A stretch of 64,000 bases of DNA. It comes from an uncultured Synergistales bacterium (GTDB lineage Bacteria > Synergistota > Synergistia > Synergistales > Aminobacteriaceae). The position numbers and the translations under genes are program-made. The notes under the pieces are model-generated. The model was not told the origin of the DNA and did no database searches. It saw only the letters and a list, made by a program, of their open reading frames with translations. Position 1 is the stretch's first letter, and the number at the start of each line of letters is the position of its first letter. Where the stretch lies: NCBI GenBank assembly GCA_905234075.1, contig CAJOGI010000003.1, positions 1 to 64,000 on the forward strand, in the 5' to 3' direction. Shown here piece after piece: positions 2,854 through 13,430 of this stretch.

Positions 2854-3435
2854 ATGGCTACGGTTAATAGCGCAGACCTTTCAGCCGGATTAAACACAGG
2901 AGACATCGTTGAATGTACTGTAGAGCAGATAATGCCTTACGGTGCTTTCGTCAGAATTTCGGAGAATGGCCGCAAGGGAATGATACATATTTCCGAGCTG
3001 TCATACGCTTTTGTCAAAGACATTAACGAAATTCTGAAAGTGCAGGACAAAATTAAAGCGAAAATTATTAAAATTGACGAGCGAGGGCGCATAGACCTCT
3101 CGATCAAGCAGACAATGAACCCTCCGGCACCGCAGCAGCCTAAAAAAACTTCTAACTACACTTCACGACCGGGCAGGGAAAATTTCAGACCTCAAGTGCG
3201 AAATTTTGACAGAGAGCAAAATACTAATAAATCGCGTGAGGTTCATGAAGTAAAAGATTTTTACGCAATGAGGGAAGCTTACAGAGAAAATAACCCCGAA
3301 GAAGCCGACTCGTTTGAAAAAAAGATGGCCTCATTCCTAAAGACCAGCGAGGCCAAAATTACGGACCTGAACACGCGGAACTCAGCACGCACAGGCCGAA
3401 GCACGAGACGCAGAAATAACAGCAGAGACTTTTAA
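2854..3435 (+). CDS. S1 RNA-binding domain protein (YabR/general stress protein 13-like)
   Basis: A 193-residue protein with one S1 OB-fold at about residues 14-86. The signature runs GDIVECTVEQIMPYGAFVRI, GMIHISELS, then KVQDKIKAKIIKIDERGRIDLSIKQ. The remaining hundred residues are polar and arginine-rich, ending in a basic ARTGRSTRRRNNSRD tail, probably disordered and RNA-contacting. Single-S1 proteins of this type (YabR, GSP13) bind RNA or ribosomes; the exact role is not set by sequence. The stop TAA shares its last base with the ATG of the next gene, and a terminator-like hairpin lies just beyond. Confidence 0.8.
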   Translation: MATVNSADLSAGLNTGDIVECTVEQIMPYGAFVRISENGRKGMIHISELSYAFVKDINEILKVQDKIKAKIIKIDERGRIDLSIKQTMNPPAPQQPKKTSNYTSRPGRENFRPQVRNFDREQNTNKSREVHEVKDFYAMREAYRENNPEEADSFEKKMASFLKTSEAKITDLNTRNSARTGRSTRRRNNSRDF

Positions 3436-4019
3436 TGCTCATGAATAAAATTTTTTTTGTGAATGCCGGGAGATCTGAAAAAGCATCTCCCGTTTTTAAT
3501 ATATCGCCGGATAAACAACGGCGTTTTGATTCCTCTCTAATAATATCCGTAAAAAAATGCGAATTTAATCACGTTCAAGTTATAATTTGCAGACCGCTGT
3601 CAAAAAAATTGAGGCCGTTCCCGACAACTTTCTGGCTCATGTGCCCGTATTTAATAAAACTTGCCGGGACTGTCGAATCTCAAGGCGGAGTTAATAAACT
3701 CGAAGAATTTTTGCGGAGTAAAAAACTTTTTCACGAATGGCACGAATATAATTTTTTGCATCAGATTTTAAGATTAAAGCTCATTAATAAAAATCAAAGT
3801 AATTTTATGAGAAAGCATAACGGAAAAATTTTTAAGTCTTTAATTCGCGGCGGTGTCGGCGGAATTAAATACGACGCTGAAAATATTAACGTTAAGTGCC
3901 TGCACCTTCAGACGGCTTCGTTTTTAGCTTTAGGCTTTCATCCGGGCAGCGAGTGGCTGAAATTGAAAGGGCTTTGCGGCGGCTGTAAAAAAAATTTATG
4001 TTCAAAACGGCCTGTATAA
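3435..4019 (+). CDS. DUF501 family protein
   Basis: The C-terminal part matches DUF501: VIICRP followed by PFPTTFWLMCPYLIK near residues 50-75, TVESQGGV, and the late RGGVGGIKYDAENINVKCLHLQTASFLAL block. The biochemical role is unknown. A conserved Cys-Leu-His and two further cysteine pairs near the end (CGGC, then a single Cys) could bind metal. The first 35-40 residues do not look conserved, and their coding DNA holds a strong terminator-like hairpin at 3466..3498. I see no clear internal start before the conserved part, so the true N-terminus is uncertain. Confidence 0.7.
   Translation: MLMNKIFFVNAGRSEKASPVFNISPDKQRRFDSSLIISVKKCEFNHVQVIICRPLSKKLRPFPTTFWLMCPYLIKLAGTVESQGGVNKLEEFLRSKKLFHEWHEYNFLHQILRLKLINKNQSNFMRKHNGKIFKSLIRGGVGGIKYDAENINVKCLHLQTASFLALGFHPGSEWLKLKGLCGGCKKNLCSKRPV
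3466..3498 (+). terminator. Intrinsic terminator-like hairpin after the S1 gene
   Basis: CGGGAGAT and ATCTCCCG form a perfect 8-bp stem around a 10-base loop, followed by five T and further A/T. It lies about 30 bases after the S1-gene stop and inside the 5' end of the DUF501 reading frame. It probably ends or attenuates the upstream transcript. Confidence 0.7.
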
Positions 4020-5211: not shown

Positions 5212-8200
5212 ATGCCAAAAGTATACAGGCTTTACACGGAACGCAAAGACCGTGAAAATTTTGAAGTTACTTCACTGCTCAACGAAATTAAAAATATTCA
5301 AGGCAACGAAAATATTTCACAAGTAAGAATATTAAACCGCTACGACGTTGAAGGACTTAATGACGAAATGTTCGCTACGTGCAGGCACGCGATTTTTGCC
5401 GAGCCCTTCACTGACGAAATATTAGAAAAATTACCTGATGACTCTGAAAAAATTTTAGCTGTCGAGTTTTTGCCCGGACAGTATGACCAGAGAGCAGACG
5501 CGGCTGAGCAATGCGCCATGCTTTTATTAGGATTCAGGCCGATTGTAAAAACTGCGAGAGTTTATTTATTTTACGGAGATATAAATAATTTTGATGGCAT
5601 TAAGAAATTTTTAATTAACCCTGTCGAAGCGAGAGAAGCAAGTTTAGAATTAGTAGTTAGAGACGGGGGATTAGGGGTTAAAGATATTAAATTCATTGAA
5701 CTTGAAAAACTTACAGAATTAAAAAATCTCGCTATGAGCCGTGAAGATTTAGAGTGCTGCAAAAAATATTTTGAATCTGAAAAAAGAAATCCTACCGAAA
5801 CAGAAATTAAAGTCCTCGACACTTACTGGTCAGACCACTGCCGGCACACAACTTTTTCAACGCATATTGAAGAGCCGGAAATTAACGACGAAAAAATTTT
5901 AGAAGTCTACGAAAATTATTTATCAATCCGAAAAAAATTAGGCTATCCTGAAAATAAACCTGTAACTTTAATGGACATCGCCACAATCGGCGCAAAATAT
6001 TTGAAGTCTCAAGGCAAGCTCCCCGATTTAGTAAGCTCCGAAGAAAATAACGCCTGCACCGTAAAAATTAATGTTGATGTTGACGGCGAAGAGCAATCTT
6101 GGCTTTTATTATTCAAGAATGAAACCCATAACCACCCTACAGAAATAGAACCCTTCGGAGGTGCGGCGACTTGTATCGGCGGAGCTATCAGAGACCCTCT
6201 GAGCGGACGTGCTTACGTTTATCAGGCAATGAGGATAACGGGCGCGGCTAGTCCTTTCAATCCCACAATGCCGGGAAAATTATCACAGCGTTCAATTATT
6301 ACGAAGGCTGCCGCAGGTTACAGCTCTTATGGAAATCAAATCGGAATACCTACGGGATTAGTTGACGAAATTTATCACGAGGGCTACAAGGCCAAGCGTC
6401 TTGAGGTAGGCGCGGTCATCGCGGCAGTGCCTGAAAAAAACGTGATACGCGAAAAACCTTCGGACGGCGATTTAATTTTATTATTAGGCGGCAAAACAGG
6501 ACGGGACGGCATCGGAGGCGCGACGGGCTCTTCAGTTTCTCATAATTCGAGCTTCATTGAGACAAGGGGCGCGGAAGTTCAGAAGGGCAACGCTCCCGAA
6601 GAAAGAAAATTACAGAGGCTTTTCAGAAATCCCGACTTCACGAAATTAATTAAACGCTGTAACGATTTCGGAGCAGGCGGAGTCAGTGTCGCGGTCGGCG
6701 AACTTGCTGACGGATTAGATATAAATCTTGACGCAGTGCCTTTGAAATATGCCGGGCTTGACGGGACTGAAATTGCAGTGAGTGAAAGCCAAGAGCGCAT
6801 GGCCGTCGTAGTCGCTGAAAAAGACGCGGAGCGCGTGAAAAATTTAGCTCTCTCTGAGGACGTTCAGGCAACTGTCATTGCTCGTGTGAATAATTCAGGG
6901 CGAATGAGAATGACTTGGCGCGGCAAAGAAATTGTAAATCTCTCACGCGAATTTATAAACAGCAACGGAGCAGCAAGACGCATAAGCGTCAGAGTTAGGA
7001 GTGAGGAGTTAGGAGTTAGGAGTGAGAAGACAAAAGATAAAAATTTTCTATCCGACTTAAATATCTGCTCGAAGCGCGGACTTGCTGAAAGATTTGACTC
7101 GACTGTCGGGGCTCACAGCGTTTTAATGCCGTTCGGGGGAAAATTTCAGAAGACCCCTGCACAGGCTATGGCCGCAAAAATTCCCGTCGGCAATCACGAA
7201 ACAGAGACATGCTCTGTAATGTCATGGGGCTTTGACCCTTGCATCTCTGAAAAAAATACTTTTAATGGCGCATATCTTGCAGTTCTTGAATCTCTCTGCA
7301 AAATTATCGCAACGGGCGCGGACTTGAAAAAATGCTGGCTGACTTTTCAAGAATATTTCGGCAAGCCCGGAGAAAATCCCGAACGATGGGGGCTTCCGTT
7401 CGGTGCGCTGCTCGGAGCTTTGAAGGCTCAATTAGATTTTGAGGTCGCTGCTATCGGCGGAAAGGACTCAATGAGCGGCTCTTTCACTGACATTAACGGC
7501 AAAAATTTTGACGTTCCGCCGACTTTAATTTCATTCGCTGTTGCTGTAACGGACGTGAAGAAAATTTTATCGCCGGAATTTAAGTGCGCAGGCTCAAAAG
7601 TAATTTTGCTTGAGCCTTCTTACGATGAGCGTGGACTGCCCGAAAAAAAATCAATGCTGAAAATTTTTGACACAATCGGCAAATTAAATTCTGACGGAAA
7701 AATTTTAGCGTGTTCAGTTCCGACGTTCGGAGGAGTTAAAGCCGCAATTTTCAAAATGTGCTTGGGAAATAATCTCGGCTTTGAGTTCACACGAACAGAT
7801 TTTGATGAGAGGCGCGGGAAATTTATTATTGAAATTTCTGACGATGTAAATGATTTTCCAGTTCTTGGCCGCGTGATTGAAGAGCCTGAAATAATTTTTG
7901 ACGGTGAAAAAATAATTTTGTCCGAAGCCGAAGAAATTTATAATTCGCCGCTTGAAAATATTTTCCCGACAGAAATAACTAGGAACGAGGAATTAGGGAT
8001 TAGGAATGAAGTTGCGAAAAATAATTTTTCCCCTCTAACTCCTACCTCCTACCTCCTAACTCCTGCCTGCTTTTTAATTCCCGTTTTCGCCGGAACTAAC
8101 TGCGAGTACGAGACGGCGAAGGCAATCGAAAAAGCCGGAGGCCGCGCAAAAATTTTTGTCGTTAGAACTTTAACGCCCGACCTAATGAAAAGTTCAGCCG

Positions 8201-8862
8201 AAGAATTTGCGGACGCTCTGAAAAAATCTCAAGCCCTCGTTCTGCCCGGAGGCTTCTCAAACGGCGACGAACCTGACGGCTCAGGAAAATTCATCGCTAT
8301 ATTTTTACGAAGTCCCGCAGTCCGTGAGGCTCTTGAAAATTTAATCGATAAAAAAGGCGGTTTAGTCTGCGGAATTTGCAACGGCTTTCAGGCTCTTATT
8401 AAAACAGGTCTGCTTCCTTTCGGGCGTATCTGCGAACCTGACGAACTTTCAGCAACTTTGACTTTTAATAGAATTGGCCGTCATCAGTCAAGAATAATTT
8501 TCTCGCGGGTAATTCAAAATCATTCGGCTTGGCTAAGAAAAACAAAAATCGGCGAGGTTTATTCAATTCCTATTTCACACGGCGAGGGACGTTTTGCATG
8601 TTCTCAAGAGACGCTCGAAAAATTAATGTGTAACGGTCAGATCGCCGGACAGTACGCGGACATTGACGGCAATCCTTCAATGCTGACGCAGTATAATCCT
8701 TCGGGTTCATTCGGAGCGGTCGAGTGTCTTACTTCGCCGGACGGCCGCATAATCGGAAGAATGGGACATGTTGAACGCAACGGGCTTGGCCTTTATAAAA
8801 ATGTTCCCGGAAATTACGGAATAAAATTTTTTGAATCAGCCGTTGAATTTTTGAAGAATTAA
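5212..8862 (+). CDS. purL: Phosphoribosylformylglycinamidine synthase, single-chain type
   Basis: A 1216-residue enzyme that converts FGAR, glutamine and ATP to FGAM in purine synthesis. One chain carries everything that PurS, PurL and PurQ do elsewhere: an N-terminal PurS-like region (about 1-150), a linker with SDHCRHTTF near 205, two synthetase halves, and a glutaminase. In the glutaminase, Cys1056 in GICNGFQ is the nucleophile and SHGEGRF holds the partner His and Glu. This is the clostridial single-chain size. Two heptamer repeats have entered the frame at about residues 593-605 and 922-952, both between domains. The start follows AAGGAG at 12 bases. Confidence 0.95.
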   Translation: MPKVYRLYTERKDRENFEVTSLLNEIKNIQGNENISQVRILNRYDVEGLNDEMFATCRHAIFAEPFTDEILEKLPDDSEKILAVEFLPGQYDQRADAAEQCAMLLLGFRPIVKTARVYLFYGDINNFDGIKKFLINPVEAREASLELVVRDGGLGVKDIKFIELEKLTELKNLAMSREDLECCKKYFESEKRNPTETEIKVLDTYWSDHCRHTTFSTHIEEPEINDEKILEVYENYLSIRKKLGYPENKPVTLMDIATIGAKYLKSQGKLPDLVSSEENNACTVKINVDVDGEEQSWLLLFKNETHNHPTEIEPFGGAATCIGGAIRDPLSGRAYVYQAMRITGAASPFNPTMPGKLSQRSIITKAAAGYSSYGNQIGIPTGLVDEIYHEGYKAKRLEVGAVIAAVPEKNVIREKPSDGDLILLLGGKTGRDGIGGATGSSVSHNSSFIETRGAEVQKGNAPEERKLQRLFRNPDFTKLIKRCNDFGAGGVSVAVGELADGLDINLDAVPLKYAGLDGTEIAVSESQERMAVVVAEKDAERVKNLALSEDVQATVIARVNNSGRMRMTWRGKEIVNLSREFINSNGAARRISVRVRSEELGVRSEKTKDKNFLSDLNICSKRGLAERFDSTVGAHSVLMPFGGKFQKTPAQAMAAKIPVGNHETETCSVMSWGFDPCISEKNTFNGAYLAVLESLCKIIATGADLKKCWLTFQEYFGKPGENPERWGLPFGALLGALKAQLDFEVAAIGGKDSMSGSFTDINGKNFDVPPTLISFAVAVTDVKKILSPEFKCAGSKVILLEPSYDERGLPEKKSMLKIFDTIGKLNSDGKILACSVPTFGGVKAAIFKMCLGNNLGFEFTRTDFDERRGKFIIEISDDVNDFPVLGRVIEEPEIIFDGEKIILSEAEEIYNSPLENIFPTEITRNEELGIRNEVAKNNFSPLTPTSYLLTPACFLIPVFAGTNCEYETAKAIEKAGGRAKIFVVRTLTPDLMKSSAEEFADALKKSQALVLPGGFSNGDEPDGSGKFIAIFLRSPAVREALENLIDKKGGLVCGICNGFQALIKTGLLPFGRICEPDELSATLTFNRIGRHQSRIIFSRVIQNHSAWLRKTKIGEVYSIPISHGEGRFACSQETLEKLMCNGQIAGQYADIDGNPSMLTQYNPSGSFGAVECLTSPDGRIIGRMGHVERNGLGLYKNVPGNYGIKFFESAVEFLKN
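6992..7029 (+). repeat. Heptamer repeat inside purL, first in-frame insertion
   Basis: Five GTTAGGA/GTGAGGA units lie inside purL and are read in frame as a seven-residue periodic peptide (RSEELGV, repeated). The position matches the linker between the two synthetase halves, just after RRISVR and before a run of lysines that leads into conserved sequence. Confidence 0.85.
7979..8068 (+). repeat. Heptamer repeat inside purL, second in-frame insertion (inverted pair)
   Basis: A forward array (ATTAGGGATTAGGAATGA) and an inverted array (CTCCTACCTCCTACCTCCTAACTCC) face each other and can fold into a hairpin. They are translated as RNEELGIRNE and then LTPTSYLLTP. The insertion lies between the synthetase part and the glutaminase, which starts with VFAGTNCEYE. 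The frame stays open throughout. Confidence 0.87.
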
Positions 8863-8899: not shown

Positions 8900-8923
8900 A
8901 AAATATAAAAGGAGTGTTAAATT

Positions 8924-11900
8924 TTGGATCGTAAAAATCTTGAACAATATCTTGGAAAAAATATTGAGATCATGTTAATGCCGGACGGGCGGAAAACTTC
9001 CGGCGTTCTTCTAAAATGCGAAGATGATCATATAGCTTTAGGCGATGAGTTATGGGTCTATCCCATGATATGGGGCGTGAAGCCTATAGCAGGGGCAGTT
9101 GAAGAAAAAATCCCTGAGCCCGTTGCCGAAGCTGCGCCTGCCATAGAAATAAAACCGGAGCCTGAGCCTGACGTTATAAAGTTTCAAAACGAGCTCGAAA
9201 AAATTTTCGACAATATGCGCGTGTCCTTAGAAACTTACACGTTAAATGCCGATTATGTTAGAAAATTTAGGACTAAAGGCCAAAGCAAAATTCAAACCAT
9301 AATTGAAAGTATCCTCACTAAATATCAATACGCTGTGAAGACTCACGAGGATAGGCCGTATTCTATGCGTATGCGCGAAATTCTCAACACAGCTTATAAC
9401 TTATGGAAAAACAATAAAAATATAATCGCTGCTTCAGAAATTTATGCGTTTGTTCTTTATCTGACGGGAGAAAGCGAACGAAGCGTAAAACTTTACATGA
9501 AAATTCATGATTTTCACGGAGCTTTTATGGCCTCATCGTCTGCCGCGTCAAAAATGCTTGCAAGCGTCTGCATAGCTGTGAGCGAACCTCTAACGCCTAA
9601 AAATTTAGCCGTGCTTTTGAAACTTGAGCCCCCACAGTTAGCTGCAGTCTTAAAATGGATACTCGATAACGCCTTAAAACCTGAAAGCGAGGTCGAATTT
9701 AATCACGCTGCCGCACTTGCATGGAAAATTCTAGGCTTTTCTTCGTGGGAAAATAAAGAGACTTTATGCAGCGAAGAAAATATTAAGGCGTTAAAAGAAT
9801 GGCTCGAAAATCAGCCGGCGGACGATAAAATTATTGAAGACGCTGTAAAAATTTCAGCAAAAGAAAATTTGCCGAAGCCCGAAGAAAAAGACCCCGTAAT
9901 AGACTGGAGCGAACAAAGACTTGACGGCGAATTTGAATTTTTTAACCTAAACCGCGATAAATTATACGGCTTCATAAAATGTCCAGTGCTGAAAAAATAT
10001 AATATCCCGTTAAGTTCTGAAAATTCCGTTTTCGTTCACTTCTATCAAATTCAAGACAGAGAACTCCGCAGAAAATTATTGACCGGCAAAAAAATGCACC
10101 CGCTTTTGCAAGTTAATTTCAAACTCGGAAGTAACACGCTGGGCCCGGCGGCTTATGATGTCCGCGAAAAAAATTACGACATTGAAAATATTTTGAAAGT
10201 AGATATGCAGTCGGCTTTATCTGAAGAGGGCGAGATAGATTTTTTTCGGCGGCATGACGAGATACCTTTCGGCAAAGTCAGAACGAAAAGCGGCGAGCTG
10301 TTCACTTTCAATGAAAATAATATTTCAGACCCGTTATTATTAGTTTTTCTTGAATATACCCCATCATCAGAAGGCCACCCCGTTCGTTTTACTCGCGGCG
10401 TTCTTAATAACGAGAGAGTACAAATTCATAATCTTGAATCCGCCGTGCCTTTCCCTGAAGATAAAGTAAAAGCGTGGCAGGCCGGAGGACTTATTGAGAA
10501 GGCACGCAGGCGAATGAATTTGCCGTCAGATGACAAAGAAATGAGCGAAGAAAATAACGCCGATTTTTACGACGAAATCACGCCTGAAATTGAAGAGCTT
10601 ATTAATCGCAGCTACGTTCCTTTAGAGCCTTATAATCCGGCCGGAGGAAATACTCAAGCCAGTCCGGTTGAAAATAAAATTCCTGAACAAACTCAAAACG
10701 GCGTAGAAACTTTCAACGAGCTTCCGAAATTTTTGCAGGATAAAATTTTAAGCGTCTCCATAGCCGGTAAATGCAGCACGGAATTTTTGGGCGATACTTT
10801 TTACAGGCGCGGCCATTTTAAGGAAGTCAAAGCAACTTATTTACAGCTCGTCAGCAGATTTAACAGCGAGGACTCACTATTAACTAACGCCGAACGTGCT
10901 GAAAGATGTTTTTTAATTGCGCGTTATGTCTATAATTTTTTCGCACTTGCCGACGATGTTGACATAAGGCTGTATTCTGCCGCCGACGAAGAAAATATAC
11001 GCATCATGGCATATAAAGGGCTTGAGTATTTAATTTATGCGGAGCTTGACGGCGCAAAAAAGAATGACGAAAATTACGACACAGCCCGACGCTACTGCCT
11101 TTTAAGAATTAACGAGGAGATACAAGTTGCCCGGCGCATCGATGACGACAACACGTGGTTTAGAATTTATATCTGCTCTTATTTTGTGAACGGCTTGAGA
11201 GTTCACCGCTCCGGCAAATGGTCTCCACAGGATATTTCGCTTGCAGGCAGCAGCCTTCTTGAGTGCAACGACTTCAAAAAATTTTTCGAGGGGCTCTTGG
11301 CTCTTGCTTACGTTACCGAGCCGACACTGCTTGAAGATACAATAATCTCTCTCATGTACAATCCAGAATATTCCGGTAGCCTCTTGAAAGAACTCGGAAT
11401 GAACTCAAGCGACGGAATATTATCTGAAAATCCCGGCGAATGCTTTGAAAAAGCTGTCGAAGAATATGCAAAGCGTAAAGATATTTTCTCGCTCGATCCT
11501 GACGTAAAACTTTCACCTGAAATCTTCAAAATTTTAAGTATTCAGTCCGCGCTCATTCGTTTAATTAAAAGGGAACTGCCCTACGTTTTGAGGACGAGCC
11601 CGGAAAAACTCGACGACGCTCTGAGAAAAGCAAACCCCATTCTCGATACAGAAGAGTATCAAAATTCTTTGGCCAAGACACGGAAAAAATATAACCCCGA
11701 TGCGGGGCTTCTTGATATTCTGCCGATTAATATACTCGGAAAAATTTTGGGGCAGTATTGGTGGCGGTTCTCTGTATTTTTTGACAACAAGCCTTTCGCT
11801 TCATATTGGGAAGAACGTTTCGAGAAGCTTCACTGGGTCAGAAATCCTGTCTTTCATGCGCACCCCGAGTACGTTAAAAAAGAGGACGTTGAAAAAGTTA

Positions 11901-11953
11901 AGGCAATCTGCCAAGAACTTACAACATGCCTCAGCAATGCCTTTAGAAGTTAG
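8924..11953 (+). CDS. Large RNA-associated protein: Sm-like, cold-shock-like and C-terminal HEPN regions
   Basis: A 1009-residue soluble protein that I do not recognise as one named family. Residues 6-53 read as an Sm-like fold (YLGKNIEIMLMPDGR, then GVLLKCEDDHIALG). Residues 332-413 resemble a cold-shock OB-fold (FFNLNRDKLYGFI, SVFVHF, LGPAAYDV), and 435-510 may be a degraded second copy. The middle is helical and TPR-like. The last 140 residues resemble Swt1-type HEPN domains, with R973 and H978 giving the RxxxxH motif in a WVRNPVFH segment. RNA binding or cleavage is inference. It starts with TTG behind AAGGAG. The last codons and stop merge with a heptamer repeat. Confidence 0.6.
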   Translation: MDRKNLEQYLGKNIEIMLMPDGRKTSGVLLKCEDDHIALGDELWVYPMIWGVKPIAGAVEEKIPEPVAEAAPAIEIKPEPEPDVIKFQNELEKIFDNMRVSLETYTLNADYVRKFRTKGQSKIQTIIESILTKYQYAVKTHEDRPYSMRMREILNTAYNLWKNNKNIIAASEIYAFVLYLTGESERSVKLYMKIHDFHGAFMASSSAASKMLASVCIAVSEPLTPKNLAVLLKLEPPQLAAVLKWILDNALKPESEVEFNHAAALAWKILGFSSWENKETLCSEENIKALKEWLENQPADDKIIEDAVKISAKENLPKPEEKDPVIDWSEQRLDGEFEFFNLNRDKLYGFIKCPVLKKYNIPLSSENSVFVHFYQIQDRELRRKLLTGKKMHPLLQVNFKLGSNTLGPAAYDVREKNYDIENILKVDMQSALSEEGEIDFFRRHDEIPFGKVRTKSGELFTFNENNISDPLLLVFLEYTPSSEGHPVRFTRGVLNNERVQIHNLESAVPFPEDKVKAWQAGGLIEKARRRMNLPSDDKEMSEENNADFYDEITPEIEELINRSYVPLEPYNPAGGNTQASPVENKIPEQTQNGVETFNELPKFLQDKILSVSIAGKCSTEFLGDTFYRRGHFKEVKATYLQLVSRFNSEDSLLTNAERAERCFLIARYVYNFFALADDVDIRLYSAADEENIRIMAYKGLEYLIYAELDGAKKNDENYDTARRYCLLRINEEIQVARRIDDDNTWFRIYICSYFVNGLRVHRSGKWSPQDISLAGSSLLECNDFKKFFEGLLALAYVTEPTLLEDTIISLMYNPEYSGSLLKELGMNSSDGILSENPGECFEKAVEEYAKRKDIFSLDPDVKLSPEIFKILSIQSALIRLIKRELPYVLRTSPEKLDDALRKANPILDTEEYQNSLAKTRKKYNPDAGLLDILPINILGKILGQYWWRFSVFFDNKPFASYWEERFEKLHWVRNPVFHAHPEYVKKEDVEKVKAICQELTTCLSNAFRS

Positions 11954-11993
11954 GAGTTAGGAAGTTTTTTTGTTCCTAATTCCTATTTGTTCC
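11947..11993. terminator. Heptamer repeat hairpin acting as a bidirectional terminator
   Basis: TTAGGAGTTAGGAA and TTCCTAATTCCTA form a 13-bp stem with one mismatch around a loop of seven T. It lies between two converging genes and covers the last codons of waaA, whose TAA stop is part of the repeat. The loop T-run supports a terminator role on the + strand; read-out on the - strand is less clear. Confidence 0.6.
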
Positions 11994-13267
11994 TCAATTT
12001 CGCTCCATGTTTTTTTTGCCGCGCCTCCGAGCGTCTTGAAATATTCGTCGCAATCCCTCAGAGCTTTGCTTGCTGCTCCTGCGTCAAGACGTTCTTCCCA
12101 TGCTTTTGCTAGTTCCGTGTCGCTGCTCACGCGCACGGCCGCGCCCATGTCGTCCATTCTTTCAGTGTCGGGAAAATCCGTCATGCAGGGCCCGTGAATT
12201 GCAGGTAGTCCGAACAAAGCCGGCTCAAAAGGATTTTGTCCGCCCTTCTCGACAAGGCTTCCACCGATAAAAACGGCATCAGCGACTGCGTAAAGCTCAA
12301 ATAAAATTCCTATCCTGTCAACAGCAATTACGTCAACGTCATTTAATTTTCTTTTGTCATTCTCAATTTGAGATAACAATTCCGCGTTAAGTTCCTGATA
12401 AGGCAGAACGGACGCGACTGTCATCAAAGCCCTTTCCGGGTGTCTGGGAACTATTATTAATCTCGCGTCGGGAAATTTTCTGCGGACAATCCTAAATGCT
12501 GAAATAACTATTTCATCTTCGCCCTGATGGGTACTACCTGCGACGAATAAAGGAGCATCGTTACGCCTAAGCCATTCCCATCTTTCCGGGCCCGTAATTT
12601 TTCTGCGGTCAAGCAGCGCGTCAACTTTACAGTCTCCTGTTACGATTATTTTTTCAGGCGGAACTCCCAACGCAATAAATTTTTCTTTGTCCTCTTCAAA
12701 ACGCACCATTAATTTTGTGAGCGCGTCAAGAACTCCGCGCCAAAACCATTTTGTGCGGCGAAGCCGTTTGAAACTTTTTTCGGATATTCTCCCGTTAGCA
12801 AGGAACGCCGGAATTTTTCTGGCTTTCAATTCTGCAAACATTTCCGGCCACAATTCCGTCTCCATTGAAATATAAATTAAAGGCTTAATATTATCGAGGG
12901 CCTGCGTTACGAATTTTTTTGTGTCAAACGGGCTGTAAAAAATTTTTTCGACGGCCCCCGACGCTAATAATCTTAATGCCATGTCGCGCCCGGTTATAGT
13001 TACCGTTGACAATACGCAGGGAAGAGGGCTCTTGCGTTTTATTCTCCGTATCAAAGAACTTGCCGATTGAACTTCGCCGACCGAGACGGCATGAATCCAC
13101 ACCGCGCCTTCAGGAACTCCGGAGATCTGTCCGAGTCTTTCTGAAATATCGTTTTTATATTTACGCTTTAAGATTTTAAGGCCGCCCAGCCTAAAAAATA
13201 TTCCGCCTAAAAATCTGTATAGAGCCATTCCGATTTTATATGAAGTAAATTTTTCTCTAAGAGCCAT
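11957..13267 (-). CDS. waaA: 3-deoxy-D-manno-octulosonic acid (Kdo) transferase
   Basis: A GT30-family enzyme that moves Kdo from CMP-Kdo to lipid IVA at the inner membrane. An N-terminal membrane-associating helix is followed by GAVWIHAVSVGEV near residues 55-67, the AFLANGRIS block near 135, VAGSTHQGEDEIV near 245, and the C-terminal SLVEKGGQNPFEPALFG donor-site block near 340. About 436 residues is the usual length. I chose ATG at 13267 because AAAGGA stands 7 bases upstream; an in-frame GTG lies 15 bases further out. The final residues (IGIRNKKTS) are encoded by the heptamer repeat. Confidence 0.92.
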   Translation of the reverse strand: MALREKFTSYKIGMALYRFLGGIFFRLGGLKILKRKYKNDISERLGQISGVPEGAVWIHAVSVGEVQSASSLIRRIKRKSPLPCVLSTVTITGRDMALRLLASGAVEKIFYSPFDTKKFVTQALDNIKPLIYISMETELWPEMFAELKARKIPAFLANGRISEKSFKRLRRTKWFWRGVLDALTKLMVRFEEDKEKFIALGVPPEKIIVTGDCKVDALLDRRKITGPERWEWLRRNDAPLFVAGSTHQGEDEIVISAFRIVRRKFPDARLIIVPRHPERALMTVASVLPYQELNAELLSQIENDKRKLNDVDVIAVDRIGILFELYAVADAVFIGGSLVEKGGQNPFEPALFGLPAIHGPCMTDFPDTERMDDMGAAVRVSSDTELAKAWEERLDAGAASKALRDCDEYFKTLGGAAKKTWSEIEEQIGIRNKKTS

Positions 13268-13430
13268 GATTTTTCCTTTCACGCTGAATTTTTTATAATT
13301 GCATATGGATTATAACGCACGGCGCGAAAAATAATTGCGGACGAAAATTATAAATCTCAACATAAAATATGATAAGATATAAAAACATGTCAGCTTTGTT
13401 AATAAAATAAAAGCGGAGGCCTTATAAAAA

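Follow-up and report, generated by a model that had tools for sequence, protein, structure and literature searches.

The gene that directly follows purL in an uncultured Synergistales bacterium encodes a 1009-residue protein and raises two questions: whether a single chain may here combine the capture of RNA with its cleavage, and, if so, whether it serves defence or the routine turnover of RNA. The gene occupies positions 8924..11953 of the window (by which we mean the whole stretch of 64,000 nucleotides that was analysed); this gene, its features and purL lie on the forward strand. The reading frame is open along its entire length and begins with a TTG codon behind a GGAG ribosome-binding site (8911..8914), both being kept in nearly all orthologues. 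Upstream lies a gene that we take, by sequence recognition, to be purL (5212..8862), the constant neighbour and the anchor of a variable site; downstream is a convergent, presumably kdtA-like gene (11957-13282). As no promoter-like or terminator-like site was found in the 61-nt gap after purL, co-transcription with purL appears plausible.

The protein consists of an Sm/SH3-like barrel, a helical region, two OB folds (OB1 and OB2), a second helical stretch called M and, at the C-terminus, a HEPN-like domain. Both helical regions had been missed in the preliminary description of this DNA: a solenoid-like one at residues 88-311 (9185..9856), delineated by the AlphaFold2 model and by conservation, and M at residues 595-824 (10706..11395), which is the best conserved part of the protein and in the sister species G021 precedes a STAND-type ATPase. 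The full-length AlphaFold2 model, built on 33 aligned relatives, has a mean pLDDT of 75 and a pTM of 0.33; the single domains are readable, but, on account of the latter value, their mutual packing is not. A Pfam search of the window protein found no STAND NTPase with Walker motifs, and neither a McrB-like GTPase nor a McrC partner is present in the protein or among the adjacent genes. Searches of PDB sequences with the whole protein and with profiles returned nothing relevant; weak matches of the window protein to Cyclin_C and to a rabbitpox chemokine inhibitor were rejected.

As to the capture of RNA, the N-terminus (residues 3-54, 8930..9085), described earlier as Sm-like over residues 6-53, was modelled by AlphaFold2 as a helix (3-9) followed by five strands spanning 13-54. 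The same part of a relative (L023) matches the C-terminal SH3/Sm domain of RimP (DUF150_C) at 3.9e-7, which passes the Pfam cut-off, and one orthologue matches it at 6.6e-4; the hhalign comparison of the Sm part with RimP of Synergistota is in register but marginal (score 20.5 versus 19.8 for the best shuffle). DUF150_C is the nearest Pfam family of the barrel, and the barrel is all that the window protein has in common with RimP, a 30S assembly factor.

OB1 (residues 332-415, 9917..10168) is a canonical cold-shock fold, in agreement with the cold-shock-like block formerly placed at 332-413. The Pfam CSD family (PF00313) covers residues 342-414 of the window protein with an E-value of 0.0018, below the curated cut-off, and is found in 9 of 16 orthologues. 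In the orthologue alignment OB1 keeps both RNP motifs, the RNP1-like YGFI (348-351, 9965..9976) and the RNP2-like VFVH (369-372, 10028..10039), F370 and H372 of the latter being invariant. When the whole model was compared with solved structures in Foldseek, the CSD1-CSD2 pair of Drosophila Unr ranked first (6y6m, E 2.6e-4); single cold-shock proteins came next, their target TM-scores being 0.72-0.82. Since the modelled strands that match the Unr pair fall at 332-415 and 434-506, the second OB fold, previously offered as a possibility at 435-510, is real (OB2, 434-506, 10223..10441; alignment, AlphaFold2 model and Foldseek). It is non-canonical: the alignment has FGKV instead of the RNP motif, and no FFH/FVH motif or corresponding histidine. 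The RNA-binding residues of Unr are FGF and (F/Y)FH, and a non-canonical CSD is one without them (PMC7383231). Drosophila Unr/CSDE1 likewise contains a canonical CSD and then a non-canonical one devoid of RNA-binding residues; unlike the window protein, it is a eukaryotic translation regulator and has no nuclease (PMC7383231, 6y6m).

The capacity for cleavage is to be sought in the C-terminal HEPN-like domain (residues 859-1008, 11498..11947), which we assign to the Swt1 type from profile-profile comparison, the motif and a model of the domain. Its RxxxxH active motif, R973-N-P-V-F-H978 (11840..11857), had already been pointed out; R973 and H978 proved invariant in the 16 full-length orthologues and in all HEPN-complete rows from the genome contigs and the window. 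The window protein itself does not match Pfam HEPN_Swt1 (PF18731), and three relatives match it at 1.4e-3, 6.4e-3 and 1.7e-4 (the last with 22.4 of 27.5 bits), all below the curated cut-off. In the hhalign comparison with a profile of Swt1-HEPN domains from other Synergistota the score was 33.7, with motif aligned on motif, while the best of 100 column shuffles scored 20.9 and the best of four further helical segments of the window protein 15.6. Modelled alone, the region forms a confident all-helical bundle (pLDDT 88, pTM 0.81). The structure-prediction check proposed earlier has thus borne out the RNA-binding folds and a helical bundle at the C-terminus, but Foldseek found for this bundle no significant PDB or viral match and no solved HEPN, so the HEPN fold rests on the profiles and the motif, by which the Swt1-type assignment is well supported. 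Large HEPN_Swt1 proteins (about 1100-1190 aa; L181-L189) are also encoded by other Synergistota.

Considering that some HEPN families have lost catalysis (PMC3710099) and that the model has no structural HEPN match, the domain might be a non-catalytic RNA-binding or dimerisation module and the whole protein a pure RNA-binding scaffold. We regard this as improbable, as neither the arginine nor the histidine varies among the full-length, the short and the two-gene forms, whose identities are as low as 24-42%. The dN/dS of the HEPN block in the closest pair is 0.015, and such purifying selection argues that the domain is used. The earlier observation of these domains is confirmed, and the proposal that capture and cleavage of RNA may be joined in one chain is supported.

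The survey of neighbours in other Synergistota, which had been recommended, revealed that, among the Synergistota genomes searched, the gene is confined to one genus and that the purL site is modular. The HEPN-bearing form directly follows purL in all 23 genome-contig loci that reach upstream, and its downstream neighbour is kdtA or a permease gene (the names of the permease, DUF362-like, glycosyltransferase-like and LicD-like genes at these sites are, again, our assignments by recognition). In G023 and G081 the site is empty, purL being followed at once by the permease and a DUF362-like gene; in G082 it carries glycosyltransferase-like genes and in G087 LicD-like genes. G091 has at the purL-permease site a 215-aa Sm-TPR protein lacking both OB fold and HEPN (L177:1-7284). 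Shorter HEPN-bearing forms, composed of Sm, helical, OB, OB and HEPN modules without M, are found in G090 at the purL site (725 aa) and in G018 adjoining the same permease (722 aa). G018 also encodes a 447-aa OB-OB-HEPN protein; it stands in a row (L024:2-3909) behind an IetA-like AAA ATPase, matching IetA at 2.2e-28, and a 476-aa glycine-rich C19orf12-like protein, and this row is possibly a separate conflict operon. The same neighbourhoods bear on the idea that the HEPN acts as a toxin which an antitoxin with its own gene neutralises, in the HEPN/MNT manner. The active HEPN motif and the weak TTG start would suit such a toxin, but there is no gene for a small partner or MNT antitoxin, the neighbours being purL upstream and kdtA or the permease downstream, and we consider this explanation highly improbable.

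Another occupant of the site is a two-gene set found in one species only, G021 (L022:4914-11449). Its first gene encodes 1683 aa with Sm, helical, OB, OB, TPR and M modules followed by an AAA_16/nSTAND-like ATPase, and the second 523 aa with an AAA_16-like ATPase and HEPN; the AAA_16-type matches in both genes are below the Pfam cut-off. Identity with the window family is 43-46% in M, 42% in HEPN and about 33% in the Sm-OB part. Given this layout and these identities, the window protein is what would remain if TPR and everything between M and HEPN were removed. Because the same Sm-CSD-CSD-M and HEPN parts sit on ATPases in the sister species, the window protein looks like, and probably is, a STAND-HEPN system fused into one chain and devoid of its ATPases. 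That the ATPases were lost, and not gained by the reverse event, an insertion, is inferred by parsimony in a family without a rooting outgroup.

On these grounds we consider it rather probable that the window protein is a single-chain RNA-binding endoribonuclease, an ATPase-less relative of the two-gene STAND-HEPN system. From the computed modules, the conservation of the motif and the modular purL site we infer RNA binding, dimerisation, cleavage, a trigger and a direction of the fusion as follows. The Sm-like barrel and the canonical OB1 would hold single-stranded RNA, and the non-canonical OB2 would fix the geometry of the barrel and OB1, by analogy with Unr; the helical region 88-311 and block M could serve as a platform or a regulatory surface. 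The HEPN domains of two chains would pair, R973 and H978 of each contributing to a metal-independent active site, which is the usual arrangement of paired HEPN domains. The protein would most likely have originated by deletion and fusion from the two-gene system kept intact in the one sister species. In the two-gene form ATP binding may gate cleavage, and in the window form another signal should take its place: since the ATPase is absent, the trigger would be an RNA or a protein partner, not a nucleotide-driven switch.

What this nuclease is used for may be judged from its distribution and evolution. Within the genus the OB profile matched 30 of 43 genomes, and beyond it none of 145 further Synergistota genomes; the HEPN profile matched 29 of the 43 and none outside the genus among the Synergistota searched. 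By open-frame count, the six-module form is present in 26 of 43 species of this single genus of Synergistaceae, two copies being broken or cut: that of G084 runs off its contig, and that of G093 (L180:2255-5283) has its frame broken immediately ahead of the HEPN core, through either pseudogene formation or an assembly error. The HEPN-bearing form is missing in 14 of the 43 species. The carriers are, by their organism titles, Synergistaceae MAGs from rumen and gut, some labelled Fretibacterium. No relatives were found among plasmids, phages and IMG/VR viral contigs, and a scan of all genome contigs with a single narrow peptide pattern returned Synergistaceae only.

In the closest pair the dN/dS of the whole 1009-aa gene is 0.049 and that of purL 0.113; in more distant pairs with unsaturated dS the two genes have similar values. 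Mapped onto the purL tree, the six-module form requires 3 changes versus 10 for shuffled labels, and 9 of 13 splits are common to the gene tree and the purL tree. Because of these few changes and common splits, inheritance is, judging by the trees, mostly vertical, the gene having been gained or lost on a few occasions. The distances of the two genes correlate at 0.69, a value reached in none of 2000 permutations.

Such slow, vertical evolution, together with the housekeeping neighbours, points to a role in RNA turnover. The protein could accordingly be a housekeeping factor of RNA processing or decay, i.e., a conserved RNA chaperone-endonuclease co-transcribed with purL, which matures or clears particular cellular RNAs; the purL-like dN/dS, the mostly vertical inheritance and the site-free gap after purL are all in line with this. 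It is nevertheless a somewhat doubtful explanation, since in 14 of the 43 species the HEPN-bearing form is absent, with clean empty sites, and nothing similar occurs in the searched genomes of the rest of the phylum.

The architecture and the variability of the site, by contrast, point to defence. That the protein is an anti-phage RNase of abortive infection, silent until it senses RNA or a protein of the phage, is a realistic possibility, though short of a probable one: the sister form carries STAND-type ATPases, an IetA-like ATPase gene stands beside the shorter relative in G018, the HEPN of relatives matches the candidate defence model PDC-M34B (6e-5 to 2e-4), the purL site is variably occupied, and the combination of CSD with HEPN is typical of the RNA-targeting CoCoNuT systems (PMC11090510). 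Phage defence had been suggested in the preliminary description, and the ATPases of the relatives speak only indirectly in its favour; however, the window gene matches no PADLOC model, its neighbours are housekeeping genes, no copies were detected among the plasmids, phages and viral contigs, and the gene evolves slowly, like purL, and mostly vertically. Weighing both sides, we lean slightly and only tentatively towards a stress- or infection-responsive RNase over one of routine RNA turnover, the latter being conceivable though open to some doubt. A further scenario, which we find rather unlikely, is the domestication of an immune effector. A STAND-HEPN defence system would have shed its NTPases, its RNA-recognition chain having fused directly to the HEPN RNase, and would now persist in most of the genus as an endoribonuclease that is triggered by RNA and stably inherited; the shorter and longer forms at the one chromosomal site would be surviving stages of this rearrangement.

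As for known systems, active HEPN domains of the Swt1 family fused to STAND-ATPase, TPR and S1, as well as HEPN-STAND proteins with cold-shock-like OB folds, were catalogued by Anantharaman et al. 2013 (PMC3710099). The Swt1/Abi2-family fusions Npun_F6454, MED222_16016 and Desac_1927 (PMC3710099) likewise join a Swt1-type HEPN with an active motif to RNA-binding OB folds and helical repeats, and the G021 form shares with the STAND fusions of this family the ATPases as well. The window protein, compared with their published description, differs in that it lacks an NTPase, carries an Sm-like head as well as a CSD-ncCSD tandem, and has its HEPN at the C-terminal end of a single chain. The CoCoNuT RNA-targeting Type IV restriction systems (PMC11090510) also combine CSD-like OB folds with a HEPN RNase effector, but they are operons with a McrB-like GTPase, coiled coils, McrC and a helicase, whereas here a single gene lacks all of these. 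In literature titles, abstracts and term counts we came across neither this domain order nor any fusion of an Sm-like domain to HEPN. The former statement that no protein with this order is described holds to this extent, although combinations of HEPN, STAND and OB folds are already published; what is new is the modular purL site, and the two-gene Sm-CSD-CSD-TPR-M-ATPase plus ATPase-HEPN set of G021 is apparently undescribed.

NTPase switches, those of the STAND type among them, are regarded as restraints on effectors that cut RNA. At a single site, sister species have the same RNA-recognition chain and HEPN either accompanied by two ATPases or free of them, and also in shortened versions. This natural series invites the questions of what controls such a nuclease after the ATPase has disappeared and whether components of immunity turn into housekeeping RNases.

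The genome of the window also encodes, on another contig (C4, L035:5129-6325), a 398-aa Sm-linker-OB-OB paralogue without HEPN. Its neighbours are an EcoRV-like endonuclease gene (Pfam, 1e-63) and a D12 methyltransferase gene. Many of the same species have relatives of this paralogue, scattered over unrelated loci, and a search of the sister species for shared neighbours showed that the context is not conserved. Elsewhere in the window, at 3435-4019, a 194-aa ORF of no recognised kind is flanked by an S1-domain gene and a comB-like gene; its identity in the nearest relative is 93%.
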